Below, piece by piece: positions 5,837-40,129 of a stretch of 64,000 nucleotides of DNA. This DNA is from Phycisphaerales bacterium (GTDB lineage: Bacteria; Planctomycetota; Phycisphaerae; Phycisphaerales; UBA1924): the NCBI GenBank assembly GCA_029260265.1, contig JAJDDO010000029.1, positions 62,001 through 126,000 of the forward strand. Direction: 5' to 3'. The translations under genes were made by a program, and so were the position numbers. A model generated the notes under the pieces. The model saw nothing but the letters and a program-made list of their open reading frames with translations. It had not been told where the DNA came from and made no database searches. Each line of letters opens with the position of its first letter. Positions within the stretch are counted from its first letter, which is position 1.

Positions 5837-6622
5837 GTGCAGCAGACTGAGTCTCTATTCCCGATTCTTCAAGAACTCTTGACCCCGCAGGAGGGGCATG
5901 TTCGAGCGTTGGTTGTTCCGAATGATGATCCGCTGGTTGGCGGGTTTTCTTCGTTTTTGAGCAAGCAACAGCGAGCACGATGTCGGCGGTTTTTCCGTGC
6001 AGAAGATCGTCGTGCAGCATCGGTCTGCAAAGGGCTTTGGAGGCTTGGGGCCGGGGTGCTGAGCGAGTGTGAGCCGCGGGGGGTACGGATGGGGCATGAC
6101 TGCTGGAACCGTCCGGTGATCAGCGGCACAACACGCGATGAGATCGATCTGAATGTTTCGAGAACGCTGACGCACTGTGCGCTGGTTGTTGGGCGGGGTG
6201 TCCGTGTGGGGGTTGATATTGAGCAGATTTGCCCGGAGCTGATCTCCCCATCGTTGGTCGAAGCGATCACTGGATCCGGTGATCATGATCGGCGAGAGGC
6301 GCTGGCTGGCGATGCGGCAGCGTTCTTCGATTACTGGACGAAAAAAGAAGCGGTGCTTAAGGGTGATGGGCGGGGGCTCGAGGTAGACCCGCGAGGTGTT
6401 CATGTGCCGTTTGGCTGCGAGCAAAGCCCTGGGGCGTGGGGTGCGTGCTCATGTGAAGAGAAGCCGTGGTTTGTGACCCGGCTGACATGCCCAGATCTTG
6501 TTTGTGGGTGTGTGGGGGCTGATCGTGAGCCTGTTTTGTTTGAACAGGTTGAATGGGCTCGTGTGCAGGATCTCTCTCAAATGCGCGGAACTTGCGCCAG
6601 TGGGGTTGCAAGAAACACCTAG
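5837..6622 (+). CDS. 4'-phosphopantetheinyl transferase (Sfp/HetI type)
   Basis: This 261-residue protein transfers phosphopantetheine from CoA to the conserved serine of carrier proteins. The two signature blocks are visible: VGVDIEQI (Mg2+-binding Asp and Glu) and FFDYWTKKEAVLKGDGRGL (the W-x-x-K-E-A-x-x-K motif). The N-terminal half has the LSKQQRARCRRFF..R..A segment usual in this superfamily. The start is a GTG at 5837 with no strong ribosome binding site, so the exact N-terminus is uncertain. It is the first gene of the polysaccharide/exosortase locus. The only carrier domains in the window belong to the NRPS at 34.4-40.1 kb, which is its probable substrate (inference). It could also serve acyl carrier proteins elsewhere. 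Confidence 0.88.
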   Translation: MQQTESLFPILQELLTPQEGHVRALVVPNDDPLVGGFSSFLSKQQRARCRRFFRAEDRRAASVCKGLWRLGAGVLSECEPRGVRMGHDCWNRPVISGTTRDEIDLNVSRTLTHCALVVGRGVRVGVDIEQICPELISPSLVEAITGSGDHDRREALAGDAAAFFDYWTKKEAVLKGDGRGLEVDPRGVHVPFGCEQSPGAWGACSCEEKPWFVTRLTCPDLVCGCVGADREPVLFEQVEWARVQDLSQMRGTCASGVARNT

Positions 6623-6747: not shown

Positions 6748-7698
6748 ATGGAGATGGTTCGGGTGCAATCCTCCGTAAAAGGGCATGTTGATCGGGTGGG
6801 TGTGTTGAGCGCGATCGATTCGGTCATGGTGCTGTGTGGTTCTGTGCATACGAGCCCGTTGGCGAGGTCTGTTGGGCGATCTTTGGTTGATCTGCCGTTG
6901 CTCGGAGGCAAGTCCATCGTGCAGCGTCACTATGAGGGTGTGCAGAAGCTTTGGGAAAAACACAAGCTCGATTCGCTGCGGATGCGTCTGATTTATGACA
7001 AAGACGGGCAGGTTCCTGCAGGCGTGCAGAACGCTGAGCCTGGGCGATGTGTTGTTGAGAGAGATCCTTCACCGATTCGAGGTGTCGCAGGGCTGTTGTC
7101 CGACGCGACCGAGGGGATCGAAGATGACCGGTACATCGTGGTGTGTAACGGCGCGGTGGTATTCCTCGAGCCCTTGCATGAGTTGGTTGAGTCCATGGCG
7201 GTAACGGAATCTGATGTGTCGTTTGTTGCATCCTCAGATGGATCGCCGGTGGGGGTTTGGCTGATTCGTTGTGGGCTCTTGCGATCGATCAAGCCGGTTG
7301 GATACATAGATCTCAAGGAGCAGGCGCTTGACATGTGGCGTGATGATCATCGTGTGCGTGTGGTGCAGCGGTATCGTCCATACGCCATGACAACCCGCTC
7401 ATTGAGCGAATATGTCGAGGCGTTGCATGCGATTGCTGGCGGATATACAAGCGGATCATCGCTGGATGAGGATCCGTATCGCGAGGATTGGGAGAGTAGC
7501 TTTCAGGTCGCTGAACCCGGCGCGGATATTGATCCGGAAGCAAGGATGCATGATGCGATCGCGTTAGACGGCTCACGCGTCGGCAAGGGAGCGGTGGTTG
7601 TTCGATCGGTGCTCTGTGATGGGGCGGTGGTCCAGCCCGGAGCGATTGTCGCTGACCAGGTGGTTACAGGTACAATCCGGAAGGGGCGTGTCTCGTGA
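6748..7698 (+). CDS. Nucleotidyltransferase-like protein (degenerate NTP_transferase fold with left-handed beta-helix tail)
   Basis: This 316-residue protein resembles sugar-1-phosphate nucleotidyltransferases in layout. It has an N-terminal Rossmann-like region containing L-x-G-G-K-S-I-V-Q-R-H near residue 53, a central part with a YIVVCNGAVVFLEP block, and a C-terminal hexapeptide-like segment (residues about 270-310: ALDGSRVGKGAVVVRSVLCD). The hallmark G-x-G-T-R-L nucleotide-binding loop near the N-terminus is absent, replaced by CGSVHTSPLARSVG. It may therefore be inactive as a nucleotidyltransferase and work as a scaffold or regulator. ATG 6748 follows AGGAAGG (6732-6738). Its stop overlaps the exosortase start (GTGA), so the two are translationally coupled. 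Confidence 0.65.
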   Translation: MEMVRVQSSVKGHVDRVGVLSAIDSVMVLCGSVHTSPLARSVGRSLVDLPLLGGKSIVQRHYEGVQKLWEKHKLDSLRMRLIYDKDGQVPAGVQNAEPGRCVVERDPSPIRGVAGLLSDATEGIEDDRYIVVCNGAVVFLEPLHELVESMAVTESDVSFVASSDGSPVGVWLIRCGLLRSIKPVGYIDLKEQALDMWRDDHRVRVVQRYRPYAMTTRSLSEYVEALHAIAGGYTSGSSLDEDPYREDWESSFQVAEPGADIDPEARMHDAIALDGSRVGKGAVVVRSVLCDGAVVQPGAIVADQVVTGTIRKGRVS

Positions 7699-8576
7699 GG
7701 GCCCTCAACGCTCGGCATCGGTGGATGCCTCGGCATATTTTCGCGATCGTGTGCCTCGTTGCGGCGGCGATCTTTGCGTCGTTTGATCAATGGGCCGAGA
7801 TCTTTTCCTTTGCTTGGACAGACGAAGAGATGAGCCATATTCTGCTCGTCTTGCCGATCAGTTTTTGGTTGATCTGGATCCGCAGGGTGCGGTTTCGGCG
7901 GTGTCCACCAAGCCCGAACTGGACGGGCGTGTTCATTGTCGTGGCAGGATGGTGTTTGGCGGCATGGAGCTTTCAGCATGCATTTCAGGCGGGGTATCAC
8001 GGCGGTGCTGTAATGATGCTTATTGGTGCGGTGATCAGTGTTGTTGGGATGCAGGTGATCATCAACCAGCTGCCGGGTGTGTTGATACTGTTTTTCTTGG
8101 TGCCGATTCCGGGCAACATTCGGCTTTCGATCGCTGGACCATTGCAGAATGCGACGGCCCGCGTGACAACCTTTACGCTTGAGCTTTTTGGATTCTGGGT
8201 CGAGCGATCCGGAAATCTTGTGGTTATTAATGAGATGCCCGTCGCGGTTGCTGAAGCTTGTAACGGGATGCGGATGGTCTTCGCTTTGGTTCTGGTGGTG
8301 TATGCGTTTGCGTTCACGGTGCCGTTGCGGAACTCGGTGCGGATATTGGTGCTGCTGTTGAGCCCGGCGGCAGCGATTGTTTGTAATGTGTTCCGGTTGG
8401 TGCCGACGGTGCTTTTGTATGGGTTTGCTCCTGAGAAGATTGCGGATGATTTCCACACGATCTCTGGGTGGCTGATGCTCCCGGTGGCTTTTTTGGTTCT
8501 TGTACTTGTGATGCGTGCGTTGCGTTGGGCGCTGGTTCCGACCTACCGGTTTACGCTGGCGTCGCAGTCGATGTAA
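7695..8576 (+). CDS. Exosortase (XrtA-like transmembrane transpeptidase)
   Basis: This 293-residue protein has about eight hydrophobic membrane segments and the exosortase catalytic triad: Cys189 in EACNGMRM (with Arg193), Arg234 in NVFRLVP, and His254 in DDFHTISGW. Exosortases cleave C-terminal PEP-CTERM-type tails and transfer the protein to a surface acceptor. The GTG start at 7695 overlaps the stop of the preceding gene by four bases. Next comes the EpsI-like gene and then chain-length and sugar-transferase genes, which is the classic exosortase/exopolysaccharide arrangement. A probable substrate is encoded at 17787-18485. Confidence 0.93.
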   Translation: MRALNARHRWMPRHIFAIVCLVAAAIFASFDQWAEIFSFAWTDEEMSHILLVLPISFWLIWIRRVRFRRCPPSPNWTGVFIVVAGWCLAAWSFQHAFQAGYHGGAVMMLIGAVISVVGMQVIINQLPGVLILFFLVPIPGNIRLSIAGPLQNATARVTTFTLELFGFWVERSGNLVVINEMPVAVAEACNGMRMVFALVLVVYAFAFTVPLRNSVRILVLLLSPAAAIVCNVFRLVPTVLLYGFAPEKIADDFHTISGWLMLPVAFLVLVLVMRALRWALVPTYRFTLASQSM

Positions 8577-8586
8577 AGGATTTGGC

Positions 8587-9273
8587 ATGATTTCAAGGCT
8601 TGCCATCCCGGTGTCGTTTGTGCTGCTGATTGCGGCGGGGTTGTTGCGTGGCGGGCACGCGGACCCTGCGATCGCCGATGATTATCATGCCGCGATTCTG
8701 GATATCGTTGAACGGATGCCGTTGGAGTTTGACGGTTGGCGAGGGAGCGAGGTGGCGTTGCCACCCGCTGCGATCAACTTGCTGCGTCCGAATGCGATTC
8801 TTGCCCGAGATTACTCAAACATGGATCGTGGGGTTCATGCGAAGCTCTTGGTTGTGCAGTGCCGGATTATTCGTGACATGGCGGGTCATTTTCCGCCGGT
8901 TTGTTACCCCGCTCATGGGTGGGCGTTGGAGCCAGACGAGCAGGGGATGGTCACGGTGAACGGGGAGTTGATGAAGTCGTATGTGTTTACCCGCAATGTG
9001 TGGGATAAAAAGCATACAATCACGGTGTACAACCTGTTTGCTTTGCCGACAGACGAGACGAGTGTATCGATGGATCGTGTGCGTGAAATTGGTTCAGATT
9101 ATCAGTTCCTGCCGTTCGGTGCGGCGCAGGTTCAGGTGGTTTTCGACGAGTCGGTTCCGATCGAGGAACATCAATGGGTGTTAGAACAGATGCTCAAGAT
9201 TGCTCAGCCGATGATTGACGCGGTAACCGATCCGCTGCCTTTTTTAGAGAGGGGCGTTGAGAATGGGAAATGA
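8587..9273 (+). CDS. Exosortase-associated EpsI-like protein (DUF3485)
   Basis: This 228-residue protein starts with a single N-terminal hydrophobic anchor (residues about 5-20) and is otherwise extracytoplasmic. It carries the family signature C-Y-P-A-H-G-W preceded by a conserved upstream Cys (VVQCRIIRDMAGHFPPVCYP). In many bacteria EpsI is fused to or encoded beside the exosortase, as here; its biochemical role is not established. ATG 8587 follows AAGGA. The end of the gene overlaps the start of the next one by 11 bases. Confidence 0.88.
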   Translation: MISRLAIPVSFVLLIAAGLLRGGHADPAIADDYHAAILDIVERMPLEFDGWRGSEVALPPAAINLLRPNAILARDYSNMDRGVHAKLLVVQCRIIRDMAGHFPPVCYPAHGWALEPDEQGMVTVNGELMKSYVFTRNVWDKKHTITVYNLFALPTDETSVSMDRVREIGSDYQFLPFGAAQVQVVFDESVPIEEHQWVLEQMLKIAQPMIDAVTDPLPFLERGVENGK

Positions 9274-11509
9274 TTTTAATGACTGGCAGGGAGATGAATC
9301 GAAGGGGCATGACAACATGCTGCTCGTGGTTCATCGACTCTTGCGTGGGCGATACATCCTGACCTTTACGCTCGCGGGCATACTTGCTGTTCTCGGGGCG
9401 TTGGCGGGGTACATGACGCAAGAGCCGGTCTACCAGAGCTTTGGCGCAATCCATGTGAGCCCACGGATTACGCGCGTGCTGTATGATAACAATCAGAATA
9501 CTTCGCCGAAGGAGTTTTCGGGGCTCGTGTCCTCGCAGGTTGGTTACTTGCAGTCCAACCGTGTGCTGAGTTTGGCGCTTGAATCTGATCGTGTGCGTGC
9601 GCTGCGGGAGGTGTCCGGGCTGTACACGGCTGACATGATCGGCTCGGGGCTGGACATCCGCACAAACAGGAAGATGCCCGAGTTTATCAATGTGACCTAT
9701 GAGCATATCGACCGAGAAGTTGCCAAGGCGGTGGTGCAATCGGTGATTGAATCGTACATGGAACTGTTCGGCGATCGAGAGAATGAGCTCAATCGCCCGG
9801 AGCTGGTCAACACGCTCAACGAGCGGAAGACGGACCTGGAGAAGCAGCGAGAGAGCCTGACAAGCCAAATCCGGGTGATCGCCAACGAGTGGAGCACCGA
9901 TGATATCGGCTTGCTTGTTCGCAATGCGATTGCGAATATCCGCCAGATTGAATCGTCCCAGATTGATTTGCAATCTCAGATTGACCAATACGAGGCCTTT
10001 GCTAGCACCGAGGGTGACGATGAAGATCAGCAAGAGATGTCCGTAGAGCGGGCGGCGCAAATCGACCAAATGATGGCGTCCTTGCTCGACAAACGGATCG
10101 CTTACGAGAATGCAAAGGCTGATCTGGAATCCGCGGGGCTTGGAGAGAAGCATCATGATATGAAGCTTGTGAACTCGGCGATCACGAATGTAAATCGACG
10201 GATCGGCGAACGGATGGAACAGATCCGCAACGGCGAGGCACGGGTTCCTGGGTTTGGGACAGCGGGTGGGTCAACTTCACTTGATGAACTCAAGCTGCGC
10301 CTTGCGAGTGTAGAAGAACGCCTCAAAGCTGCAAGGGCCGCTCAACAGAAGCTTGGGAGCGCTGATCTTGAGATCCGAGACCTGATCGCCAGCCGTGAAC
10401 AGGTCGACGGGAAGATTGCGGAGGTGGACGAACGGCTTGACCAGATCGAAACCGAATCAAGAGTGCAAGAGTTCACTGAGGATTCAAAGCGGATCAGCGT
10501 AGTTGAAAAAGGGGTAACGCCCATGACGCCCTCGGGCGATCGGCGTCGGAAGATGGCTGCACTTGGCTTTGTGGGCGGCGGCGCGATTCCGGTGGTGATT
10601 ATGCTTGGGCTGGGATACATGTCCAAAAGCGTACGGTTTAGTGATGATGTGATCATGGGCGATTCGCAGGGGGTGGTGGGGATGCTTCCGGATCTTGGCG
10701 AATCGTTGGGCGACCAAGAACTGGCCGAGGCGTCCGCGTTTGCGGTGCACCAAATTCGATCGCAGCTTCAGATCAAGTACTGCACCAAGGGGCACGGCAC
10801 GATTTATGAGGTAACAAGCCCGTCGTCCCAGGACGGCAAGACGAGCTTGATTATCGCGATGGGGCTCTCGTTCGCCGAGTCTGGAGACCGGACTTTGCTG
10901 CTCGATCTCGACCTGATCGGTCGGGGGCTGAGCATCCACTTTGGGCATCCAAACGCATCGAGCCTTGTTGAGGCAATGGGCGATCTGCCCTCGCTTTCTT
11001 CGCTTGTGCAGCCGACTGATTTTGATGGTCTGAGTATTTTACCTGCTGGCTTTGGCGACGATGTCCTGATTAGCCGGCTCTCGCCGAATGTCATCGGGCG
11101 GCTGCTTGATGAGCTTCGTACGCAGTTTGACACGGTTCTGGTGGATACGGGCCCGATTCTTGGGAGCATCGAAGCCGGGTTCTTGGCTTCGGAAGCTGAT
11201 GGAGTGATTCTTGTCGTTGGGCGTGGGCAGCTGCGCCCTCTGATTCGGCGTGCGGTCGAGCAGATCAATGGTGTGGGCGGGAAAATTGTGGCCACCATCT
11301 TCAATCGAGCGTCAGGGTATGAGCTGCGTCAGTCAACGGGGACGATGTCGGTGCACTTCTCGCGTCAGGCGGCGCGTCAGGCGGCAGAGGCGGCATCAAG
11401 GACCGGACCTCGGGTTGGACCGGTCGCGGGGACACTCTTCGCAGATCGCATCAAGCAGACCAATGGCAACGAGGACGGTTCGAATAATGATTCGACCCGC
11501 GCGGGGTAA
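9263..11509 (+). CDS. Polysaccharide chain-length determinant fused to BY-kinase-like ATPase (Wzc-like)
   Basis: This 748-residue protein has an N-terminal Wzz part with a first membrane segment at about residues 30-52, a long periplasmic coiled-coil region (about 180-410) and a second membrane segment near 430-450. The cytoplasmic ATPase domain has a Walker A variant SSQDGKTS (Lys526), a Walker A' LLLDLDLIGRG and a Walker B LVDTGPILGS. Proteins of this type set exopolysaccharide chain length and control export. The expected tyrosine-rich C-terminal cluster is missing: the last 40 residues have no Tyr, so autophosphorylation cycling of the usual kind is doubtful. I chose ATG 9263, which has AGAGAGGGG upstream, over a TTG two codons earlier. 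Confidence 0.9.
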   Translation: MGNDFNDWQGDESKGHDNMLLVVHRLLRGRYILTFTLAGILAVLGALAGYMTQEPVYQSFGAIHVSPRITRVLYDNNQNTSPKEFSGLVSSQVGYLQSNRVLSLALESDRVRALREVSGLYTADMIGSGLDIRTNRKMPEFINVTYEHIDREVAKAVVQSVIESYMELFGDRENELNRPELVNTLNERKTDLEKQRESLTSQIRVIANEWSTDDIGLLVRNAIANIRQIESSQIDLQSQIDQYEAFASTEGDDEDQQEMSVERAAQIDQMMASLLDKRIAYENAKADLESAGLGEKHHDMKLVNSAITNVNRRIGERMEQIRNGEARVPGFGTAGGSTSLDELKLRLASVEERLKAARAAQQKLGSADLEIRDLIASREQVDGKIAEVDERLDQIETESRVQEFTEDSKRISVVEKGVTPMTPSGDRRRKMAALGFVGGGAIPVVIMLGLGYMSKSVRFSDDVIMGDSQGVVGMLPDLGESLGDQELAEASAFAVHQIRSQLQIKYCTKGHGTIYEVTSPSSQDGKTSLIIAMGLSFAESGDRTLLLDLDLIGRGLSIHFGHPNASSLVEAMGDLPSLSSLVQPTDFDGLSILPAGFGDDVLISRLSPNVIGRLLDELRTQFDTVLVDTGPILGSIEAGFLASEADGVILVVGRGQLRPLIRRAVEQINGVGGKIVATIFNRASGYELRQSTGTMSVHFSRQAARQAAEAASRTGPRVGPVAGTLFADRIKQTNGNEDGSNNDSTRAG

Positions 11510-11512
11510 GTT

Positions 11513-12937
11513 ATGAGTGCTCTACCGGTAGAAACTCGCGATGAGCACACGCTTTGGGGGTATACGCCCGAGCAGTTGCATTCCCGATTCTGGAAGGCTC
11601 GCGGTATTCAAGTGGTGCCGAACCAGATGCCTGAGTTTGAGGTGGATCGGCGTGCGGAGCTCTATCTGCTCGTTGACCATAAGCACATGGTGATCATGCC
11701 TGTTCGTAAACTCTTGGATGTGCTGTATTGGCTCAAGCCCGATCTGCTTGTGGTCCGCGTAGCGGATCGAAGCGTGAATCAATACCGCGAAGTCGTTGAT
11801 ACACGCCCGGATGGGCACTTTCTCCGGTTTCAAAGGTCTTACGAGGGATCGACGGATCGGCTCGCGCGGGTGGCGGTCACGACGGATCCACTCATCGCAC
11901 GGGACTGGACCTTAATGAGTTCTGACCGATCGGCTTGGGCAAGGCTGCGCCGATTGATCCCCTCGGATCTCCGGTCTGCAATTGCTGTCGACGGGCGAGT
12001 GTATGCAAACACGGTGGACACTGATCGTGCACGATTTGTCCGTGATCTCGCCAAAGCCTGGACGCATCCGGATTCTACGATTGCCCGGCTTCAGCGTGTC
12101 GGCAATGCAAGTTGGCAGGATGCAGATTCACCAAAGTTCGACGCGGCGCGTGTTTCTGGACCGATCTGGATAGGCGCGGGCCGGAGCATACCCGAGGGCA
12201 AGGTAGGGGTCGGTCCCGCGGTGCTCTGGGATGATCCGGAAGTTCGACCTGCGATCTCGGACATTGATTGGCGAGATATCGAGCCGGTGCAACCACGCTC
12301 AGAGCGAAGAATGAAAGAGCCCGCGCCATGGACACAGCGGCCGGCGCGTCGATTTTTTGATATCGTCTTTGCGTTGATTGCCCTTGCGATAACGCTGCCG
12401 CTGTACCCCTTCATAATCGCAGCGATCATCATTGAGGATCGCACCCCGATATTCTTTGGTCACAAGCGTGAGACCACCAACGGCAAAGAGTTCAAGTGCT
12501 GGAAGTTCCGCACGATGTATCGCAACGCCGAGAAGATGAAGGCGGAGCTTCAGGGTGCGAACGAGGCGGACGGGCCTCAGTTTTTCATGGAAAACGATCC
12601 GCGTATCACTCGTGTTGGGCGTGTGCTACGCAAGTTGCAGCTTGATGAGTTACCACAGTTTTTCAATGTGCTCTTCGGGCAGATGTCGGTGGTAGGACCT
12701 CGACCGAGCCCGTTTTCCGAGAATCAATATTGTCCCGGCTGGCGTGAGGCGAGGCTGAGTGTTCGTCCGGGCGTAACGGGGCTGTGGCAGATCCGTAGGA
12801 CCCGTGCAGACGGGGCGGATTTTCAGGAATGGATCCGTTACGACATTGAATATGTTGAGCAGGCGAGCCTGCGGTTAGATTTGTTAATTATCTGGAAGAC
12901 GATTGCGCTGGTTGCCGGCGCCCTTGCTCGCCGTTAG
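11513..12937 (+). CDS. Polyprenyl-phosphate sugar-1-phosphate transferase (initiating, WbaP/PssY type)
   Basis: This 474-residue protein has about 270 residues of an unrecognised N-terminal domain followed by a bacterial sugar transferase domain. The membrane segment FDIVFALIALAITLPLYPF is followed by the conserved FKCWKFRTMYRNAEKM, QLDELPQFFNVLFGQMSVVG and VRPGVTGLWQI blocks. Enzymes of this family start polysaccharide repeat-unit synthesis by moving a sugar-1-phosphate onto undecaprenyl phosphate at the inner membrane. The N-terminal region lacks the five membrane helices of WbaP and seems soluble, which is unusual. It lies three bases after the chain-length gene. Confidence 0.92.
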   Translation: MSALPVETRDEHTLWGYTPEQLHSRFWKARGIQVVPNQMPEFEVDRRAELYLLVDHKHMVIMPVRKLLDVLYWLKPDLLVVRVADRSVNQYREVVDTRPDGHFLRFQRSYEGSTDRLARVAVTTDPLIARDWTLMSSDRSAWARLRRLIPSDLRSAIAVDGRVYANTVDTDRARFVRDLAKAWTHPDSTIARLQRVGNASWQDADSPKFDAARVSGPIWIGAGRSIPEGKVGVGPAVLWDDPEVRPAISDIDWRDIEPVQPRSERRMKEPAPWTQRPARRFFDIVFALIALAITLPLYPFIIAAIIIEDRTPIFFGHKRETTNGKEFKCWKFRTMYRNAEKMKAELQGANEADGPQFFMENDPRITRVGRVLRKLQLDELPQFFNVLFGQMSVVGPRPSPFSENQYCPGWREARLSVRPGVTGLWQIRRTRADGADFQEWIRYDIEYVEQASLRLDLLIIWKTIALVAGALARR

Positions 12938-12954: not shown

Positions 12955-15900
12955 ATGCCCATGCGTCCTCGCACATTTCGCCGGCTCGTTCTCTCGCTCG
13001 TCTTTGGTGCGGTGGTGTGCATCGGGTTGATCGGGTACTTTGTTGTTGGCCCGATGCAGCAACGCCGGAGTATCGAAGAACTCCGCACAAATGGGATGAG
13101 TGCATATGAGGCCGGCGATTACGCCACGGCGACCCAGAGCCTTCGGCGGTATCTTCGTGCGACCAAGCCCGCGCCTGCGGCAGAGCTGCTTGCCTATGCC
13201 CGATCACGGGCCAAGGTTGAAGCCGGCGATAGCGGGCACCTGCAGGCTTCGATATCGGCGTATCGCGATTACCTGAATCAGCGCCCGGATGACCAAGAGG
13301 TTTCGATCGAACTGCTCAAGATGTTCAATCGTGATGGGAAGTGGCCGGAGGCGGTTGCTCTTGGCGTCAAGTTGCGTGCTCAGCCTGGGATCGATAAGCG
13401 GGCGGTGTTGGAGGAAGAGTTGTCTGCACGCAAGCGGATTGATCCTGATGACAAGCAGATCGCGGTGCTCTTTGAGGAGTTGCTCTCGCTCGGGTCACCG
13501 AGCTTTGCGACGGTTTGGTCCTACGCACAGTGGCTTGATTCTTCAGAGAGACTGGCTGAGGCCGATGCATTTCTGGAGGAGAGAATCGCTATTGAACCGA
13601 ACTCGATCGGCGCGAAGGTTCTCGGTGAGTTGATCGGTGATCGGTTGCCTGATCCGCGGACCTCGAACCCGATTGAGATCGCCGACAAGGTGACGATACT
13701 GACCTCGATCATTGGATGGAACAACGAGGAGCAGGCATGGGAAGAAGATTTTCCTGCGATTGATTCGATTGACTTGGGGAAGCTTCTCGCACGAGCGTTT
13801 GACCTGATGGGGCGTGGGGATTTGGCGCTGGAGGTTGAAGGCAGGATTGCACTTGAGACTGAAGATCAAGTTGTTCTTGGGTCGTACGCCCGCAGGCTCT
13901 GGTGGGCCAAGAGAATCGATCGATTGCAAGCGATCGAGGTGGCCAACTCGGACTTGCTTGGATTCCAGGTTCTTGCTGCGCAGCTACAGAATGATGCGGA
14001 TGCTGAGGCTCAGATACGGGCGCAACTCAAACAGATCGATACCGATTTCCGGGCGAACGGGTGGACGCAGTTCTTCGAGGCGACCGATCTGATCGAGAAA
14101 GGGGATTTGGTCGCAGCGCGTGGGGTGCTTGCCAAGGCGATGAGCACGAACCCGCTTGAGCCGACCTACCACTTGGTGATGGGCGATCTGTACTCAAGGC
14201 TTGGGCGTGAGACAGATGCGAAAGAAGAATGGCGTGACGCGGACACACTCGCCGAGCATGTGGTCTGGATTGAGCCCACGCTTCGTCTGATTGCCTCGCT
14301 CCAAAGATCTGAGCATCGTTCCGAGGCCGGTGCGGTTGCGCAGATGCTGATGGCTCGTGCGCCGCGTGAGCCGCGGGCGAGGCTTGTGTGGCTAAGCACC
14401 CAGGCGATGATGGCCCGCTCTGGATTATTGAGCGACCAGCAGATTGATTTTGCGATCATCACCGCGAGGCGATTAGCGGAGTACCTCCCCAAAGTTGAGC
14501 GGGATCGATTGTCGGCCAACTTGGTCGTGTTGCTGCTTGTGTCTGGTCAGCAGGAGGAGGGGATCGCGGAGATTCGTCGATTGCTTGATGACTCTGTCGA
14601 GCCGGGGGTGTTCGCGAGCATTATAGAGATCGATCAGTTCTTCGACCTCGGAGTGGTCGAGACAGATGCTGCGGGCTCGGCGGAAGTCGCTGCCAAGAGC
14701 CCCGATGCCTCGTTCGGGTACGCCCACAAGGTCTTTGTGAAAACAGGTGATCTCGAGGAAGCAATGCAGGTGTTCGACACGGGACGCGGCGGAGCAAGCC
14801 CAGTTGAGTACAAGGCGTGGGATCTTACACGCGTGAAGTTCCTCGACACGATCGGAGAAGAATCGGCGAAAGGCGAATGGCTGCGGTTGCTCAACGATGT
14901 GTACCCCGATGATATCGAGCTTCAGTTCGAGGCAATCGACTCGCGTGCTTTGGGGTTGGATATCGGATTTGTGGATCGAACGATTGAAAAGATTCTCGAT
15001 CTCACATCATCCAAAGGGAGATCGGTGCCGATTCGGCTCCGTCTTGCTAGAGCGCGTGCCATTGCGAGCGGCGATGGGATAAACAAGTCAAAGCGAGAAG
15101 AAGCCCTGTCCATCGTGCGTGGGGTGATCGTCTCTGATCCGCAGAATATTCGGGCGCGATTGATGCTCAGCAATATTCTCGATCTTCCTTGCCCGCCTGA
15201 ACTGGTTGGGAATGAACGGTTTACTCGTGATCGGGCGGGCGCAGCGGCGGAGCAGCTGACAATTTCAAGGCTGATTGCGGGACCTGAGGCACGGGATTCT
15301 TTGTTTCGGGTATCCCAGCTGAATATCGATATTGGCGATTCAGACGCTGCACGAGAGAACTTGCTTGAGGCGTATGCCAGAAGTGAAGGTGATGTTGGTG
15401 CTCAGTACAAGATCATACTTGAGATGCGTCGGGCGGGCGAGTTTGAGCTCGCGATCCCGAGGCTGGCCGATCTCATTGGGCAGTCGTCATCGCCGCTGAA
15501 GGGTGATGTACAGATCACACTCGCACGGATTTTGAGCGGGCTCAATCGACGAGCACAGGTGCTTGGGGTGCTCGTGCAAATTGCAGAGTCTGAATCGCTC
15601 ACCGAGTCGCAGTTGATCGATTTGATCACGCTCTTTGTGCAGATAGGGAATCGGGTCGAGGGGGAGCAGGTCCTTGTCAATGCGGGCGCGTACGGGCTCG
15701 ATGAGCAGGCAGCACTGAATGCAAGGATTCAGTTTGCGATCATGACCGGTCAGAGCGGTGATGCAGAGCAGCTCTTGCAATCGATTGTGGATGCAGATGC
15801 TTCAAACATCGATGCGTGGCGGAGCTTGGCAAGATTGATGGGGAAGGATGGGCGCAGTGATGAAGCCAAGGCCATGCTCGAACAAGCGCTTGAACTAAAT

Positions 15901-22757: not shown

Positions 22758-22784
22758 CTGGAGTTGTATCGGCGATATGGCATG

Positions 22785-22815
22785 AAAAAGCCGCAGCGTT
22801 GAGAGCAACTGCGGC
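22785..22815 (-). terminator. Terminator between the beta-helix gene and the flippase gene
   Basis: On the minus strand a 7-bp stem (GCCGCAG with CTGCGGC) with a 12-base loop is followed by five T residues. It lies 26 bases past the stop of the beta-helix gene, so the flippase gene would need its own promoter or read-through. Confidence 0.75.
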
Positions 22816-22841
22816 AATTTCTTGCATTCTGTCAGGCGGGA

Positions 22842-33052: not shown

Positions 33053-34408
33053 ATGACGCACACGATGGCAGATCACGCAGCGGCACTTCAAGAGAAAATT
33101 AGCAACAAATCCGCAATCGTAGGGGTTGTTGGGCTCGGGTATGTAGGGCTCCCGCTCGCGGATGCTCTGCACACTGGGGGGCTTGGCATCCTTGGATTTG
33201 ATGTTGATCCCTCCAAGATCGAGATGATCGCCAAGGGCGAGAGTTACCTCAAGCATCTGGGCGCGGATATGACCGAGAGGCTTGGGGCGTCGGGCAAGTT
33301 TGATGCAACGACTGACTTCAGTCGGCTCGATGAGCCGGATGTGATTCTGGTGTGTGTCCCGACCCCGGTTGGGCCGCATCTTGAACCAGATTTGTCGTAT
33401 GTGATCCAGACCGCTCAAGACATCGGTGCGCGTTTGCGCCCCGGGCAGCTGGTTGTGCTTGAATCAACAACTTACCCGGGCACCACCGAGCAGGATTTTC
33501 TTCCCGCGATGTTGAAGGCAGCAGAAGAGAACGGGCGTGGAACCTTTGAGGTCGGCAAGGATGTGTTTGTCGCGTTCTCACCCGAGCGCGAAGATCCGGG
33601 GCGAAAGTCTCATACGACCACCACGATTCCGAAGTTAGTCGGAGGGGTCGGGGAGGCATCAACGGAGTTGGCAGCATCCGTGTACGAGTTGGGTGTGGAC
33701 TCGGTGGTCAAGGTCAGCACCGCCCAGGTTGCGGAGGCGGCCAAGATCCTCGAGAATGTATTCCGTGCGATCAACATCGCGATGGTGAATGAACTCAAGA
33801 TTGTCTTTGATGCGATGGATATCGATGTATGGGAGGTCATCCAGGCCGCGTCAACCAAACCCTTCGGGTTTATGCCGTTCTATCCCGGCCCTGGGCTCGG
33901 TGGACACTGCATCCCTATCGACCCGTTCTATCTGACATGGAAGGCGCGTGAGCATGGGCATGTGACCCGGTTTATTGAGCTTGCGGGCGAGATCAATCGC
34001 GGGATGCCTGAGTTCGTGGTTTCTAAGGTTGCTGAGGCGCTCAACGATGACGAAAAATCCATCAAGGGTTCGAACATCATGGTTGTCGGGCTTGCTTATA
34101 AACCGAATGTTGATGACACCCGCGAGACGCCTGCAGCAGAAATTATCGAGCTGCTTGCTGGGCGTGGAGCGAGGGTCAGCTATCACGATCCGCATGTGCC
34201 GAGCTTCCCTTCCATGAGGAACTACGATTTCTCGATGGACTCGGTGGCGCTCGACCAATCTACGCTCGAAGCGGCGGACTGTGTTGTGATTGTGACCGAT
34301 CATGCGATCACCGATTGGGAATCAATCGGGAAACACGCATCGCTTGTTGTCGATACACGCAACGCCATGGCTGGATCAGAGCACAACGCTCGAATCGTCA
34401 AAGCCTAA
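33053..34408 (+). CDS. UDP-N-acetyl-D-hexosamine 6-dehydrogenase (WbpA-like)
   Basis: This 451-residue protein belongs to the UDP-glucose/GDP-mannose dehydrogenase family. It has the N-terminal Rossmann motif VVGLGYVGLPLADAL, the ESTTYPGTTEQDF block characteristic of WbpA-type UDP-GlcNAc dehydrogenases, the catalytic Cys in GPGLGGHCIPIDPFY and the C-terminal VVGLAYKPNVDDTRETPA segment. It makes an N-acetylhexosaminuronic acid nucleotide for the polymer. AAGGA precedes the ATG. It is followed after 15 bases by the NRPS gene, so the two may be co-transcribed. Confidence 0.92.
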   Translation: MTHTMADHAAALQEKISNKSAIVGVVGLGYVGLPLADALHTGGLGILGFDVDPSKIEMIAKGESYLKHLGADMTERLGASGKFDATTDFSRLDEPDVILVCVPTPVGPHLEPDLSYVIQTAQDIGARLRPGQLVVLESTTYPGTTEQDFLPAMLKAAEENGRGTFEVGKDVFVAFSPEREDPGRKSHTTTTIPKLVGGVGEASTELAASVYELGVDSVVKVSTAQVAEAAKILENVFRAINIAMVNELKIVFDAMDIDVWEVIQAASTKPFGFMPFYPGPGLGGHCIPIDPFYLTWKAREHGHVTRFIELAGEINRGMPEFVVSKVAEALNDDEKSIKGSNIMVVGLAYKPNVDDTRETPAAEIIELLAGRGARVSYHDPHVPSFPSMRNYDFSMDSVALDQSTLEAADCVVIVTDHAITDWESIGKHASLVVDTRNAMAGSEHNARIVKA

Positions 34409-34423
34409 GGGCGAACGAGGAGA

Positions 34424-37400
34424 GTGCGGGGGATCGGATTGGTTGATTCAATGCTCAACCCGATGCGTGTGCACGAGGTCTTCGAGTCGATCGTTGCGCA
34501 ATATCCGGAGAAAACTGCGGTTGTCTGTGGCGGAGATCGGATCAGTTATCGCGATCTCAACTCACGAGCCAATCAGCTTGCGCATCATCTCCTCGATCTG
34601 GGTCTGGAGCGAGAAGGCTTTGTTGCGCTCGCGATGCCGAAGTCATGTGACTTGATCGTGGCGATGTTGGGTATTTTAAAGGCCGGCGGTGCCTATGTGC
34701 CGCTCGGCGAGAACTTCCCCATTGCCAAACTCCGAGAAATCATTCATGATGCAGGCTGCACGATCGCGGTCGGTCAACGCGGGCATCTGGACGAGCTTTG
34801 GACGGCGCATGAAACGCTTGTTCTGCTCGACGATGCCTCCGCGTGCGAAGAATCAAATCCGGTAACACATGGCGATCCGCGAGATCTTGCGTATGTGCTC
34901 TATACATCCGGGTCGACCGGTGAGCCAAAGGGTGTGCAGGTCGAGCACGCGGGCGTTGTGCGGCTGGTGGTTGGGCAGGACTATATGCCATTTGATGCCG
35001 AGACCAATCACTTCTTTATGGGGCCAATTTCCTTTGATCTTTCTACCCTCGGGATTTACGGGCCGGTTCTCAACGGGTCGACCATGGTCATCGTTGCTGA
35101 CTTGATCCCGGACGCTGCTCAGTTGGAAGAGTTGATCCGCCGGGAGGATGTGCGTGCTGGCATGGTGATCTTTGGGCTGTTCGCATCATTGATAGAGGCG
35201 CGGCCGAAGATGTTTGAGACGATGTCGACGGTGGTCGTAGGTGGTGAAGCGGTAACCGCATCGGTGATGCGGCGGGCGATGGATGCGATGCCGAACACCC
35301 GATTTGTGAATGGTTATGGCCCCACCGAGGCGACGGTTTTATCGACCACCTACCAGATCGAATCAATCGGGATCGATGCACCGGCGACGATACCGATCGG
35401 AAAACCCTTGGCGGGCATGACACATGTTGTGGTGGATTCAGAGTTGATGCCTGTCGAGCAAGGGGAGCTTGGTGAGTTGTGCATGATCGGTGTAGGGCTT
35501 GCTCGCGGGTACCTTAATCGCGAAGAGCTCACACGCGAAAAGTTCCCAACCATCGATGTGGGAAATGATCATCGCGTGCGTGTCTACCGGACCGGGGATC
35601 GGGTCTATGAGCTGCCAAGCGGGGATATTGTGTTCGATGGACGGATTGATCAGCAGGTCAAGATTCGTGGATTCCGAATCGAGTTGGGTGCGATTGAGGC
35701 GGCGATAGAGAGGCTTTCTGCGGTGCACTCCGCAGCGGTTATCGCTGTAGGCGACGGTGCATCCGCGATTCTTGTTGCGTGCGTGGTTGGCGAGTATGGT
35801 GATGAATCTTCGGTCCTGGATGCTCTCGATGGGCAGCTTACTGAATACATGATGCCTGATCGGGTGATGCTCATGGATTCGTTTGAGGTGACCGCAAATG
35901 GGAAAATAGATAAGAGTGCGCTCGTCGAACGGGTTTCCCGCGAGTTGAATACCAAGCAGCGCTCAGCGTACTGCTCTCCACATACTTCTACTGAAAAAAC
36001 ACTATGCTCACTCTGGGAACAGCTGCTCGGGCATGAGCGGGTTGGTGTAGATGATTCGTTTATTGGGCTTGGCGGGCACAGCCTGCGTGCGGTGGTGCTG
36101 TGTTCTCGTGTGCGAGATCAGTTGGGTGTTGAGCTGCCCGTTTCTGTGGTTTTTTCAAATCCTAGCGTCCGTCAACTCGGCGTTTGGATTGATAACGCGG
36201 TCTCGACAGGGGTGGCGATCGAGACTATTGAAGCTGTTGATCGGAAAGGATTCTTGCCGACCTCCTATCACCAAGAGCGGTTATGGATGCACGACAAAAT
36301 CCATCCGTTTGATCCGAGCTACAACATTTCAATGCGTCTGCACTTTGCTGGTGATCTTGATGAGCAAGCGATGCAGAATGCGTGGCGTGCACTTCACCAG
36401 AGGCATGAAATCTTGCGGACACGCATTTTGGGTTCAGAGCAGGTTGTTCTCGGCATGGATGAGTTCGAACCCGCATTTAGATTGGAGGACGCGGTCGGCG
36501 AGCAAGAGATGGACGCTGCTCAGCGGCGTGAGTTCTCACGAGTGTTTGATCTCGAATCGGTGCCACTCGCGAGGATCTGTGTGTACAAGATGCGTTCGGG
36601 TAGGGCCGTACTCGCGATTACAATCCACCACATTATTTCTGACGCGTGGTCGTGCGAGATTCTTCGGCGAGAGCTTGAAGAGTTCTACGCGGCAGAGATT
36701 CAAGGGCGTGAGCCAATATTGGACAAGTTGAGTGTGCAGTATGCAGACTACGCTCACTGGCAGCGTCGTCGTGCGGAGACAGATGAGTACAAAGAGAAGC
36801 TTGGATACTGGACGGAAAAACTCAGGGACGCACGCTCGACTGATCTTCCCGCGGATTCTGTGCGATCAAGCCAGATTCAGAACGCTGGCGATCGGGTTCA
36901 GATGGACCTGCCTGAAAAACTCGTTGCCGATATCCGTCGGCTTGCTTGCGAGCGTTCGGTAACGACAAACGCCGTTCTGCTTGGCGCGTTCAACGCATGG
37001 CTCCATAGGCTGGTTGGCGACAAGGATGTGGTAATCGGGATGCCAATTGCCAATAGAGAACACTCATCGCTTGAAGGGCTGATCGGATTCTTTATGGATA
37101 CCGTGCCGCTGAGGACTCCGGTTGCAGACTGTGACACTTTCGGCGATGTGGTAACGCATACCGCTCAGGAGCTGTGGGAGTCTGTTGACCGGTGCGAGGT
37201 CGCGTTTCAGCATCAGATTGAAGCGATCGGAGGGCACGCGGAAGCGGGGCGGAACCCGGTCTTTGAAATCTTCTTTAACTACATCGCGTTGCAGCTTCGT
37301 GGAGCAGGTGGCAAGTACCTCTCGTTCGATGAACAAGAGATCGATAACAAGACGGCCAAGTTTGATCTGACCTGCTACATCTTTGATGATGAGAAAGCGA

Positions 37401-40129
37401 TGTCGGTGGTGTTCAACTATCGGGTTGCCTTGTTTGAGCAGAGTACGATGGAGCGGTACCTGGCTCAGTTTGTAGCCCTGCTCACTGCTGCGATCGGTCG
37501 GGCGGATGCGCGGGTATCGAGCCTCAGGATTCTTTCAAATGAGGAAGACCAAACATGGGACTCTGTTCGCAGAGGAAAGCAGGTTGAGGAGTTGCCGGGC
37601 GAGCATATTCTCGCGGCGGTTGACCGGACGGCACGCCGGTACCCGGATGCGGTTGCGGTGGCATCTGTTCTTGGTGAGCTGAGCTACGCGGAGATGGTTC
37701 GATGGAGCCATGGTGCGTGCGAGCAGCTCCGATCGCTCGGCGTGAAGCCCGGGGATCGGGTTGCAATCGCAATCGAGGACCATCGCCTGATGGCGGCTGC
37801 GGTGCTTGGGGTGCTGAGAGCAGGTGCGATCTATGTGCCGATCGAGCTTGGTTGGCCAGCGGCTCGGATTGAGCAGGTGCTGGCGCTCTCGTCAGCAGGG
37901 TTTGTAATCAGTGAACAACAGAGTTGGGCGGGGGCCGCATCGGTTTCCCCTGATGATTGGTCTCTATTGGATGGAGCCGGTGAAGACGGCGCGGCGATAT
38001 GCCCAAACGCCCCCGTGTACATGATCTTCACATCCGGTTCGACCGGTGTGCCCAAGGGCGTGGTGCAGACTCATCGAGGTGTGGTCGAGCACAACACGGT
38101 GTTCGCGGATTCGCTGGGGCTCAGATCCGATGATCGGGTCCTCATGCTCAGCTCGCCTGCGTTTGATGCCGCTCCAATGGATATGTATGCGGCATGGTTT
38201 GTTGGCGCGGCATGGTGCCCGTTTGATTTGCAACGGCACGATGACACAGAACTTGCCGAGTTTGTGAGCACGCAAGGCGTCAGTATTTTTCATTCTGCAC
38301 CATCGGTGCTTCGCTGGTTCGCGGGGTGTGAACCCGATTCCGGACTGCTCGAGTCCGTGCGAACAGTGGTTATGGGCGGCGAACCTGCCTTTGGGAATGA
38401 CGCTCGATGGGTGCAGCAAACATTCCCGCAATGCAGGGTGCTAATCAATGGGCTGGGTATGACGGAGTCATCTGTTACGCTGCAGCATCACATCGATCTT
38501 CGAGGCCAAAGAACCGAAGCGAGTTCTGCTCTGCCGATCGGGCAGCCCACGAAGGGTGTACGCGTGCGACTCGTGGATAAAGACGGTGCGGAGACCGCGT
38601 TGTTTGGTGAGATCGAGATTGAGAGCTCTCGTATAGCGGCGGGGTATTGGGACGCAGAACGGCGCGAAGTCGTCGCAATAGGAGAAGCGACAGCAGATGG
38701 GCGTGTAGAGTTGCGAACGGGTGATCTGGCGGTCATGCGTGCCGACGGGATGCTTGTCCATCGCGGGCGTGTTGATCAGCAGGTACAGGTGCACGGCTGT
38801 CGCGTTGAGCCTGGTGAGGCTCAATCGGCGGTTGGATCGCTCGATGCGGTGCGTGAGGCTGCCGTGATCGCGGTAGAGGACGAAGCCGGCGGGCATAAAC
38901 TTTGCGCATTTGTTGTGCTTGAGCAGGAGTGTACAGCAGATGTGAGTGAGTTGCGCTCTCAGCTTGGGCAACTTGTTCCAGGGTACATGGTTCCGGCAAT
39001 GTGGGCGTTGGTCTCAGAGATCCCTCGGATTGCAGGCGGGAAAGTTGATGTTTCGCTGATGAGGCAGTTCATCGAGGAACAAAATAGCGCCGCCGAGGGC
39101 GAGCACGCCAAGCCGATTGGCGAGATTTCCCAAGGAATCGTGGAGGTGTATCAAGAGATATTGGGGACCGATCAAATTCATGGTGCATCCGATTTTTTCC
39201 TCATGGGAGGCACATCACTTCGGGCGATCCGGGCGTTCGCCTTGCTCCGCGAGCGGTATGTAACTCGGCTGCCCGTTTCGGTGATGTTTCAGTCTCCAAC
39301 ACCAAACGCCCTTGCAGCATTGATTGAGGCTGAGCGTTCTGACGAGCAAAGTGAAAATCTCTTTATCGTCATGAGGGAAGGCAAGGGCGATCGTACGGCG
39401 TATTTGCTTCCCGGTGTTGGCGGGCACCCGCTCGGATTTGGTTCACTGCTCAAACAGTTCAGCGATGATCGACGGTACATCGGTGTTCAGCTGCCCGGTG
39501 TAGATGGATCGCGCAAGATGTTCGAGAATATGCATGACCTCGCGAGCCACATCATTGACCAGATGGACCTCAACGAGAAGGCGCGATCCCCAGACATCAT
39601 TGGTTACAGCTTCGGTGGAGCGCTGGCGATGGAGATTGCCTACCAACTCCAAGAGAAGGGATATGCACCGGGGCAGGTTTTGCTGCTTGATTCGCATCTC
39701 ATGCGGGGGCTGCCGCGAAAGCTATTGCTGGGGAGGCTGATCGAGCATCTTCGTTCACTTGTTCGGACCGATGGCCAGGGCGGGCTCGGGTACCTCATCG
39801 AGAAGATCCGCGGTGCGAGCAATGGGAAAGGCGAGCAGCCCAACAGGCCGGTGTCCATGAACCCTGATATTGATTTGGTCACCAATCACAACCGCCGGAT
39901 GGTCATGAATCATGTGCCCCGCGGCATCTACCGCGGACCGGTTGAGCTCATCCGTGCTAGTCAGCCGGAGTGGCTCCGGTTTCACCGGGACGATGGGGTG
40001 AATGGGTGGGCAAAGTGGGCCGCGTCAAGCCAAATACGGGTGCATGATGTTGGAGGTAGGCATCTTGATCTGCTCGAGCCAGAGTCTGCTCAGTTGGTTG
40101 CTGATCAAGTTTTATCTAGCATTCGATGA
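34424..40129 (+). CDS. Dimodular non-ribosomal peptide synthetase, A-PCP-C-A-PCP-TE
   Basis: This 1901-residue enzyme has a first adenylation domain (about residues 10-510, core LYTSGSTGEPKG near 157 and NGYGPTEAT), a carrier domain with phosphopantetheine Ser553 (LGGHSL), a condensation domain (about 600-1030) with H735-H736-x-x-x-D740 (IHHIISDAW), a second adenylation domain (about 1070-1545, IFTSGSTGVPKG near 1201, with the unusual NGLGMTE where YGPTE is usual), a second carrier with Ser1598 (MGGTSL) and a thioesterase with Ser1729 (GYSFGG) and a candidate His1880. It should release a two-residue product. Hand alignment to GrsA-PheA gives D-L-L-F-V-G-G-V-L for the first pocket and D-A-M-H-V-G-G-V-T for the second; neither is an exact code known to me. 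The start is probably GTG 34424 (GAGGAG upstream, closely spaced), or ATG 34451. Confidence 0.93.
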   Translation: MRGIGLVDSMLNPMRVHEVFESIVAQYPEKTAVVCGGDRISYRDLNSRANQLAHHLLDLGLEREGFVALAMPKSCDLIVAMLGILKAGGAYVPLGENFPIAKLREIIHDAGCTIAVGQRGHLDELWTAHETLVLLDDASACEESNPVTHGDPRDLAYVLYTSGSTGEPKGVQVEHAGVVRLVVGQDYMPFDAETNHFFMGPISFDLSTLGIYGPVLNGSTMVIVADLIPDAAQLEELIRREDVRAGMVIFGLFASLIEARPKMFETMSTVVVGGEAVTASVMRRAMDAMPNTRFVNGYGPTEATVLSTTYQIESIGIDAPATIPIGKPLAGMTHVVVDSELMPVEQGELGELCMIGVGLARGYLNREELTREKFPTIDVGNDHRVRVYRTGDRVYELPSGDIVFDGRIDQQVKIRGFRIELGAIEAAIERLSAVHSAAVIAVGDGASAILVACVVGEYGDESSVLDALDGQLTEYMMPDRVMLMDSFEVTANGKIDKSALVERVSRELNTKQRSAYCSPHTSTEKTLCSLWEQLLGHERVGVDDSFIGLGGHSLRAVVLCSRVRDQLGVELPVSVVFSNPSVRQLGVWIDNAVSTGVAIETIEAVDRKGFLPTSYHQERLWMHDKIHPFDPSYNISMRLHFAGDLDEQAMQNAWRALHQRHEILRTRILGSEQVVLGMDEFEPAFRLEDAVGEQEMDAAQRREFSRVFDLESVPLARICVYKMRSGRAVLAITIHHIISDAWSCEILRRELEEFYAAEIQGREPILDKLSVQYADYAHWQRRRAETDEYKEKLGYWTEKLRDARSTDLPADSVRSSQIQNAGDRVQMDLPEKLVADIRRLACERSVTTNAVLLGAFNAWLHRLVGDKDVVIGMPIANREHSSLEGLIGFFMDTVPLRTPVADCDTFGDVVTHTAQELWESVDRCEVAFQHQIEAIGGHAEAGRNPVFEIFFNYIALQLRGAGGKYLSFDEQEIDNKTAKFDLTCYIFDDEKAMSVVFNYRVALFEQSTMERYLAQFVALLTAAIGRADARVSSLRILSNEEDQTWDSVRRGKQVEELPGEHILAAVDRTARRYPDAVAVASVLGELSYAEMVRWSHGACEQLRSLGVKPGDRVAIAIEDHRLMAAAVLGVLRAGAIYVPIELGWPAARIEQVLALSSAGFVISEQQSWAGAASVSPDDWSLLDGAGEDGAAICPNAPVYMIFTSGSTGVPKGVVQTHRGVVEHNTVFADSLGLRSDDRVLMLSSPAFDAAPMDMYAAWFVGAAWCPFDLQRHDDTELAEFVSTQGVSIFHSAPSVLRWFAGCEPDSGLLESVRTVVMGGEPAFGNDARWVQQTFPQCRVLINGLGMTESSVTLQHHIDLRGQRTEASSALPIGQPTKGVRVRLVDKDGAETALFGEIEIESSRIAAGYWDAERREVVAIGEATADGRVELRTGDLAVMRADGMLVHRGRVDQQVQVHGCRVEPGEAQSAVGSLDAVREAAVIAVEDEAGGHKLCAFVVLEQECTADVSELRSQLGQLVPGYMVPAMWALVSEIPRIAGGKVDVSLMRQFIEEQNSAAEGEHAKPIGEISQGIVEVYQEILGTDQIHGASDFFLMGGTSLRAIRAFALLRERYVTRLPVSVMFQSPTPNALAALIEAERSDEQSENLFIVMREGKGDRTAYLLPGVGGHPLGFGSLLKQFSDDRRYIGVQLPGVDGSRKMFENMHDLASHIIDQMDLNEKARSPDIIGYSFGGALAMEIAYQLQEKGYAPGQVLLLDSHLMRGLPRKLLLGRLIEHLRSLVRTDGQGGLGYLIEKIRGASNGKGEQPNRPVSMNPDIDLVTNHNRRMVMNHVPRGIYRGPVELIRASQPEWLRFHRDDGVNGWAKWAASSQIRVHDVGGRHLDLLEPESAQLVADQVLSSIR

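Follow-up and report, generated by a model that had tools for sequence, protein, structure and literature searches.

An optional nonribosomal peptide synthetase and phosphopantetheinyl transferase in an exosortase-polysaccharide locus of Phycisphaerales

Why should a bacterium keep a nonribosomal peptide synthetase (NRPS) and a 4'-phosphopantetheinyl transferase (PPTase) at the two ends of a locus whose other genes point to a surface polysaccharide and an exosortase-processed protein? We addressed this question for a 64,000-nucleotide stretch of DNA from a Phycisphaerales bacterium (the window), which spans positions 62001-126000 of contig 22 in a draft genome assembly of 2.9 Mb that comprises 41 contigs. 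An earlier note on this DNA had described an uninterrupted locus at 5837-40129 that combines exosortase, sulfation and an NRPS. Profile searches of the window with Pfam and NCBIfam recovered each part named there, the Wzy-like protein by its sequence character. One conserved gene between the PPTase and the exosortase (6748-7698) had been omitted. The stretch is uninterrupted in that it holds no foreign gene. However, it consists of three strand blocks (plus at 5837-18485, minus at 18543-24485 and plus at 24810-40129) and therefore cannot be a single transcription unit.

The first plus-strand block begins with the PPTase (5837..6622, 261 aa). Its left neighbour is a conserved hypothetical gene (4786..5805, plus strand) with no Pfam match and a homologue at this place in all 15 compared loci. 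The PPTase is of the Sfp type, with PF01648 (35.1 bits) in a protein of the ~230-260 aa class, distinct from AcpS; the only other PPTase match in the genome is AcpS-like and lies elsewhere. The omitted gene follows (6748..7698). Its product has a nucleotidyltransferase-like C-terminus, weak sub-cut-off profile matches and no assigned function. All 15 compared loci have this gene upstream of the exosortase, and it also neighbours more distant exosortases. Next come the exosortase (7695..8576), an EpsI-like DUF3485 protein (8515..9273; PF11984 over cut-off, TIGR02914 below), a Wzc-like chain-length/BY-kinase protein (9257..11509; PF13614 29.8 bits, TIGR01007 below cut-off), an initiating polyprenyl-phosphate sugar transferase (11513..12937; PF02397 209.3 bits, TIGR03025 below cut-off), a PrsT-like TPR protein (12955..17397; TPR matches, TIGR02917 66.3 bits, cut-off 312) and a secreted-looking protein (17787..18485) with a sorting tail made of VPLPPAA, a hydrophobic stretch and RIRR.

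The minus-strand block encodes RmlD, a dTDP-4-dehydrorhamnose reductase (18543..19442; TIGR01214 over cut-off), a small RmlC-like protein (19439..19933; PF14667 31.2 bits, cupin-like by eye), a Wzy-like membrane protein (19930..21348), a Wzx flippase (21423..22817; PF13440 167.8 bits) and a right-handed beta-helix protein (22842..24485; PF13229 29.4 bits). The Wzy-like protein gave no match to Pfam or NCBIfam profiles; it was assigned by its membrane-rich sequence, judged by eye, and its position, and it has homologues in 8 of 15 loci.

The second plus-strand block holds a glycosyltransferase (24810..25958; PF00534 75.5 bits), a sulfotransferase (25955..26893; PF13469 106.6 bits), a glycosyltransferase (26890..27855; PF00535 48.1 bits), a second sulfotransferase (27710..28741; PF00685 and PF13469), three more glycosyltransferases (28714..29748, PF00535 64.1 bits; 29714..31000, PF00534 117.6 bits; 30985..32007, PF00535 58.9 bits), an Alg14/PssD-like subunit (31977..32480; PF08660 36.6 bits, NF041549 below cut-off), an Alg13/PssE-like subunit (32414..32968; PF04101 47.2 bits, NF041548 below cut-off), a nucleotide-sugar dehydrogenase of UDP-HexNAc type (33053..34408) and the NRPS (34424..40129). 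The dehydrogenase scores 401.8 bits with TIGR03026, over cut-off; its best equivalog, UDP-ManNAc dehydrogenase, stays below cut-off. The loops GAERSGTT and GAMKCATSS of the first and second sulfotransferase are presumably PAPS-loop-like motifs. The second sulfotransferase probably starts further in, as several relatives align only from residue ~51. With an initiating transferase, Wzx, Wzc, glycosyltransferases and the Wzy-like protein, these genes make up a Wzx/Wzy polysaccharide locus, and the two sulfotransferase genes indicate that the polysaccharide is probably sulfated. The locus thus offers a candidate sulfated polymer outside cyanobacteria. The synechan xss cluster of Synechocystis is likewise a Wzx/Wzy cluster with two sulfotransferases, but it is cyanobacterial and the main text of its description does not mention an exosortase (PMC8205485); it was all that a literature search on exosortase, sulfotransferase and exopolysaccharide returned.

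The NRPS (1901 aa) is dimodular, with the order A1-T1-C-A2-T2-TE assigned from domain profiles and catalytic motifs. The motifs of the A, T, C and TE domains are intact in every ortholog covering them. The protein contains the only condensation-domain match in the window's genome and two of its four AMP-binding matches. Its best-scoring NRPS equivalog is AusA (NF047350), at 797 bits against a cut-off of 2500, and searches of solved structures returned generic NRPS relatives. TIGR03098, an acyl-CoA ligase, is also an AMP-forming enzyme and is tied by name to exosortase A; the window enzyme differs in that two modules, with C and TE domains, are fused into one NRPS, and it scores 331 bits where the cut-off is 592.

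How firmly are the NRPS and PPTase tied to the rest of the locus? Across loci, the order runs from the 4786 gene through an optional PPTase to the 6748 gene, exosortase, EpsI-like, Wzc-like, sugar transferase and TPR genes. One or two tailed proteins, RmlD/RmlC, Wzy and/or Wzx, glycosyltransferases with sulfotransferases, the dehydrogenase, an optional NRPS and a beta-eliminating-lyase gene follow. We take the last to be threonine-aldolase-like. It lies directly behind the NRPS, the dehydrogenase or an A-T-TE enzyme in eight relatives; in the window (lyase gene at 62252-63319) a pyrimidine/hydantoin-degradation-like cassette and other genes intervene at 40260-61935, and genome G155 shares the first gene of this cassette.

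A window-type exosortase is present in 12 of 21 genus genomes (window included), the other 11 at 66-72% identity to it; the same search gave 12 further matches at only 26-30%. Seven genus genomes encode a full-length NRPS (G000, G151, G155, G158, G159, G165 and, counted across contigs because it is split, G160). A second, Sfp-type PPTase lies beside the exosortase in six of these seven and in none of the 14 genomes without the NRPS. The exception, G155, has no PPTase match at all and is a 61% complete assembly. Eight of the 14 have no window-type exosortase, and six (G092, G113, G152, G153, G162 and G167) keep the locus without full-length NRPS or second PPTase; in G113 and G167 the contig breaks off short of the NRPS site, and their lack of an NRPS is taken from the whole-genome search. 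In all six, the gap between the 4786 and 6748 homologues is 397-542 bp and holds no recognised PPTase, and the lyase gene comes straight after the dehydrogenase in G092, G153 and G162. Where the NRPS is present, its longest frame starts 0-44 bp past the dehydrogenase stop on the same strand in all seven loci with both ends on one contig, though true starts may be somewhat further in; the NRPS of G160 also lies directly behind the dehydrogenase and then runs off its contig. The PPTase and NRPS are 23-29 kb apart where one contig carries both.

The sister genus g27 extends this pattern and also bends it. G122 carries both genes, with an NRPS that has no A2 (A-T-C-T-TE). G264 has the PPTase, and its contig stops short of the NRPS site. 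G265 has the PPTase and, in place of the NRPS, an inverted A-T-TE enzyme at the NRPS site. A similar A-T-TE enzyme occupies this site in G152 of the main genus without a second PPTase, which counts against a strict NRPS-PPTase rule. This A-T-TE family (847-885 aa; L074:3215-5755, L061:7258-9900, L069:9074-11683 and L070:8552-11206) has, by eye, no Asp at the first pocket position; two members are inverted at the NRPS site and two lie elsewhere. In total, seven loci have both PPTase and NRPS, one has the PPTase with another carrier enzyme (G265), six have neither and none has the NRPS alone (Fisher p 0.0047 with kinship ignored; G264 and G155 are left out because in each of them one of the two sites lies outside the contig). 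Some locus PPTases match PF01648 near its threshold (E 7e-5 to 2e-4), so a very divergent PPTase elsewhere in a genome could be missed.

Kinship was taken into account with a tree inferred from five proteins of the locus (18 rows), in which g27 falls outside the genus, G000 and G160 separate next and the remainder follows. On this tree, two changes account for the presence of the PPTase and three for that of the NRPS, G265 supplying the third; gain and loss are not distinguishable. Two independent PPTase/NRPS contrasts result, both concordant; because there are only two, a sign test cannot reach significance. Outside A1, the NRPS groups as the locus tree does, and PPTase pairwise identities, an identity comparison alone, follow the same pairs. 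The pair therefore has the look of an inherited unit, with at least two joint absences. The gene-order comparison that the earlier note had proposed thus found NRPS and PPTase at fixed sites, jointly present or absent, and with operon-like spacing to the dehydrogenase, all of which supports a functional link. We consider it very probable that the two genes are an optional, mostly vertically inherited module functionally linked to the locus.

The earlier note had also held that the NRPS and PPTase would be chance neighbours if close relatives kept the locus without them. Read literally, six relatives do just that; however, the two genes are missing together and are otherwise inherited. That they merely landed beside the locus and persist by hitch-hiking is very unlikely. 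The six relatives, the limit of two independent contrasts and the degradation cassette next to the window's NRPS, which indicates that the area tolerates insertions, all speak for such an accident, but several facts stand against them: two genera carry the genes at the same two sites, descent is mostly vertical, both genes are missing together although their sites lie 23-29 kb apart, and the NRPS follows the dehydrogenase by 0-44 bp. An inactive relic is hardly credible. Divergence has been fast, with identities to the window of ~40% for the NRPS and ~30% for the PPTase against ~67% for the exosortase, yet the catalytic motifs are kept, frames of ~1,900 codons are open in six genomes and an adenylation pocket appears to have been exchanged, as described below.

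Does protein sorting at this locus depend on the NRPS? The exosortase belongs to the EpsH family, with PF09721 (166.7 bits) and TIGR04178 over cut-off and with Cys, Arg and His motifs. EACNG[M/L]R occurs in 25 of 25 exosortase sequences listed and FHxxxG in 22 of 25; the Arg motif of the window protein, NVFR, was read by eye only. The protein scores 129 bits with the exosortase A (XrtA) model TIGR03109, below the cut-off of 208, and a plasmid search with it gave only matches below 60% identity. The VPLP(P/T)A tail, hydrophobic stretch and basic end are found in all 20 tailed-protein homologues listed, preceded by QDQL in 19 and by QDLL in G122. One or two copies with the same VPLP tail lie near the exosortase in 14 of 14 loci covering the place. 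TIGR03370 (VPLPA-CTERM tail) gave nine weak matches in the window's genome, none over cut-off and none at the locus protein. The regular presence of such a tailed protein near the exosortase suggests that the two are a dedicated enzyme-substrate pair. The tail is unchanged in loci with and without the NRPS; thus sorting in the latter does not need it.

The locus resembles the PEP-CTERM/EpsH (XrtA) loci in its exosortase, EpsI-like protein, Wzc-like protein, sugar-phosphate transferase, PrsT-like TPR protein, tailed substrate and polysaccharide genes (PMC1569441). Unlike these, it falls below the XrtA, PrsT, TyrKin and ChnLen cut-offs, has a VPLP tail, has no TIGR03019 protein and includes an NRPS and Sfp-type PPTase. 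The FemAB-like TIGR03019 protein is absent from the window's genome and has matches, below cut-off, in 1 of 21 genus genomes. We considered whether a FemAB protein replaces the NRPS where the latter is missing and rejected the idea for the genus, since TIGR03019 would then be expected in NRPS-less genus genomes and the one matching genome bears the NRPS. This search covered the 21 genus genomes; sister-genus loci do hold FemAB/GNAT-type genes.

Such genes, and others of amino-acid chemistry, lie in the variable parts of related loci. G122 (L054:1359-5257) encodes a polysaccharide deacetylase (PF01522), a FemAB/GNAT-type protein (PF13480), with a second copy assigned by homology to the first, and an ATP-grasp protein. 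In G264 (L072:6858-8842) there are a FemAB/GNAT-type protein, over cut-off with PF02388, and a further GNAT, with homologues in G265. G165 encodes an AsnB-like protein (L039:5604-7454; PF00733, 24.0 bits against a cut-off of 21) to which G160 has a homologue, and it also carries an extra sulfotransferase. A deacetylase, a FemAB-related transferase and an AsnB-like amidotransferase make up the Wbp/Vim linking-sugar kit, which has been noted beside exosortases (PMC7468200). Such amino-acid-transfer genes in sister loci make attachment of a peptide to a sugar more plausible. Profile searches of the window locus found no deacetylase, FemAB-like or AsnB-like gene.

Could the NRPS instead provide a linking sugar with its aminoacyl or dipeptidyl part, the sugar then serving as acceptor for the protein that the exosortase cleaves? 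In the type IX system, an amide bond connects the C-terminus of the cargo with Ser or Gly borne by a HexNAc-derived uronic acid. The authors of that account, who describe the exosortase acceptor as unidentified, suggest that it may be a similar amino-acid-modified sugar (PMC7468200). The window locus shares with the Wbp/Vim pathway of P. gingivalis and T. forsythia (same source) a UDP-HexNAc dehydrogenase and amino-acid chemistry, which there serve a sortase-linked glycan. It differs in having an NRPS and not the deacetylase, FemAB-like and AsnB-like genes, and its tie to the sorted protein is hypothetical. Neither a VimA-type amino acid transferase nor a VimE-type deacetylase was among the genes of the window locus; G122 has proteins resembling both at the level of family, and G264 has one of the FemAB kind alone. 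An NRPS directly behind the dehydrogenase, and sister loci with VimE-like (deacetylase), VimA-like (FemAB/GNAT) and WbpS-like (AsnB) genes, a likeness by family only, would suit this reading. It is nevertheless improbable, as the exosortase is kept in six relatives without the NRPS and the tailed protein in five of five showing the place; the six also have no TIGR03019 match, and sorting there needs neither NRPS nor TIGR03019. More generally, a glycan operon that includes a peptide assembly line whose first pocket is exchangeable, together with aminoacyl-transfer genes in sister loci, offers a concrete and testable candidate source of chemistry for the exosortase acceptor.

What might the NRPS make? 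Pocket letters were read by alignment at positions that we take from the gramicidin synthetase convention. The A2 pocket is DAMH[V/I]GG[V/L]x in all seven orthologs having A2. The A1 pocket falls into several types: DLLM (DLLMVGGVL in G000, DLLMLGAVL in G155, DLLMLGA in the G160 fragment), DVLCAGAML (G165, G159), DAIWMGSAL (G151, G158) and DLICGCAAL (G122). We know of no exact match to a known substrate code for either pocket and assign no substrates. Within a type, the A1 core is more conserved than C, A2 and TE (76% identity for G000-G155, 71% for G151-G158, 53% for G165-G159), and between types in near relatives it is less conserved (G159-G158 45%, against 58% for TE). At residues 181-300, G159 is 70 and 63% identical to G165 but 35 and 48% to G158, whereas over most of C, A2 and TE it is nearer to G158. 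The break in A1 lies around residues 181-360. The A1 core rejects the group G159+G151+G158 (AU p 0.0079), while T1+C+T2+TE supports it (99/100) and rejects G165+G159 (AU p 0.0002), the AU groups having been chosen after the identities were seen. Since the groupings conflict, A1 appears to have swapped its pocket part as a subdomain. A constant second pocket beside a first pocket that is lineage-variable and apparently exchanged seems to be a new observation. From the domain order and pockets we infer that the product is a dipeptide whose first residue varies by lineage and whose second is fixed. For G122, which has no A2, our guess is that A1 may load both carriers.

The pockets can be compared with the glycan genes. 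The core glycosyltransferases, one sulfotransferase and the dehydrogenase occur with and without the NRPS in loci covering them. Loci of one glycan set have the Alg14/Alg13 pair and Wzy (G000, G160, G165, G159, G162, G122, G264, G265); in the other, a WecG/TagA-type glycosyltransferase replaces the pair (G151, G158, G152, G092, G153, G167; one member scanned). DLLM and DVLC pockets are confined to loci of the first set and DAIW pockets to those of the second, in few independent cases. This match is in keeping with a peptide-glycan link. That pocket and glycan genes moved together in a single transfer is unsupported, because the glycan genes of G159 are not consistently nearest those of G165.

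We therefore weigh an explanation in which the NRPS-PPTase module most likely decorates the glycan with its dipeptide. The PPTase would arm both carrier domains, A1 would load the lineage-variable amino acid and A2 the constant one, C would join them and TE would release or transfer the dipeptide. The dipeptide would become bound, through an ester or an amide, to a sugar that the operon itself produces, and would vary the surface polymer in the manner of a serotype determinant. Joining it to a uronic acid carboxyl would need another ligase, because the NRPS activates the peptide's own carboxyl. We give this reading, with its predicted activity, dipeptide and attachment, a probability of about 0.43. 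It would be a case of an NRPS serving a cell-surface structure instead of secondary metabolism. Several findings count against it: six relatives keep core glycan genes without the NRPS; G265 has the PPTase without the NRPS and G152 the A-T-TE enzyme without a second PPTase; there are two independent events only; and profile searches recognised no deacetylase, sugar aminotransferase or acyltransferase in the window locus.

The main rival, a rather unlikely one in our view, is that the NRPS makes a diffusible small molecule, such as a free dipeptide or diketopiperazine acting as signal or antagonist, that is merely co-expressed with the biofilm polymer. The earlier note, too, had named a signal among its options. 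Aureusimine would be the model: AusA is a dimodular A-T-C-A-T NRPS with its own PPTase, named AusB in NCBIfam, and the best-scoring equivalog here. NRPS and PPTase are self-contained, with a TE, and pocket exchange is known among peptide natural products. AusA, however, ends in a reductase where the window enzyme has its TE, no dedicated exporter, regulator or resistance gene was recognised in the scanned locus, and the NRPS sits directly behind the dehydrogenase in every locus showing the place. A planctomycete in which a PEP-CTERM gene lies within a proposed N-acyl tyrosine gene cluster favours a diffusible product (PMC7293339); such exosortase-linked N-acyl amino acid synthases resemble the present case in placing genes for amino-acid-derived small molecules beside PEP-CTERM genes, but the enzyme is a different one.

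Decoration of the glycan and acceptance of the sorted protein could also coincide, the peptide being both a species-variable group of the sulfated glycan and the amine-bearing acceptor to which the exosortase joins the tailed protein. We regard this double role as quite improbable; were it true, exchange of the A1 pocket would be a natural way of switching surface identity.

Is this arrangement found elsewhere? The earlier note knew of no description of the combination, and our literature searches, within the papers covered, agree: they found none of exosortase, polysaccharide genes and NRPS/PPTase, nothing on exosortase, NRPS and phosphopantetheinyl transferase together, and, for exosortase and nonribosomal peptide in Planctomycetes, only the N-acyl tyrosine work (PMC7293339). 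In two further papers that mention both an exosortase and a nonribosomal peptide synthetase, the exosortase appears just in the title of a reference. In a survey of 163 genomes of the family, an exosortase was matched in 72 (E <= 1e-40) and an NRPS in 30 (E <= 1e-60); the close NRPS group consisted of the seven genus genomes and G122 only. A sample of 151 genomes of the order gave NRPS-like matches in 53 and an exosortase in all 151. A check of the neighbours of 30 NRPS-type loci of the order met the dehydrogenase only next to those of the window and G122; it is a weak control, because the flanks were measured as 1.5 kb from the match and in many cases do not reach past the gene itself. Two chemoreceptors flank the region in the window, at 2826-4685 and 57086-59167, with Tll0287-like and NIT sensor domains.

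Beyond the clade, among the matches listed, other NRPSs were found by eye within ~25 kb of an exosortase only in G125, G253 and G254. In G254 (L088-L089) and G253 (L090), which belong to a different genus of this family, a PPTase adjoins an NRPS of the order A-T-C-T close to the exosortase; in G254 the two lie between the sugar transferase and a TPR gene. G125 has an A-A-T-TE protein ~21 kb from the exosortase, where the PPTase model found no PPTase. These are different NRPSs and possible recurrences of such an enzyme near an exosortase.
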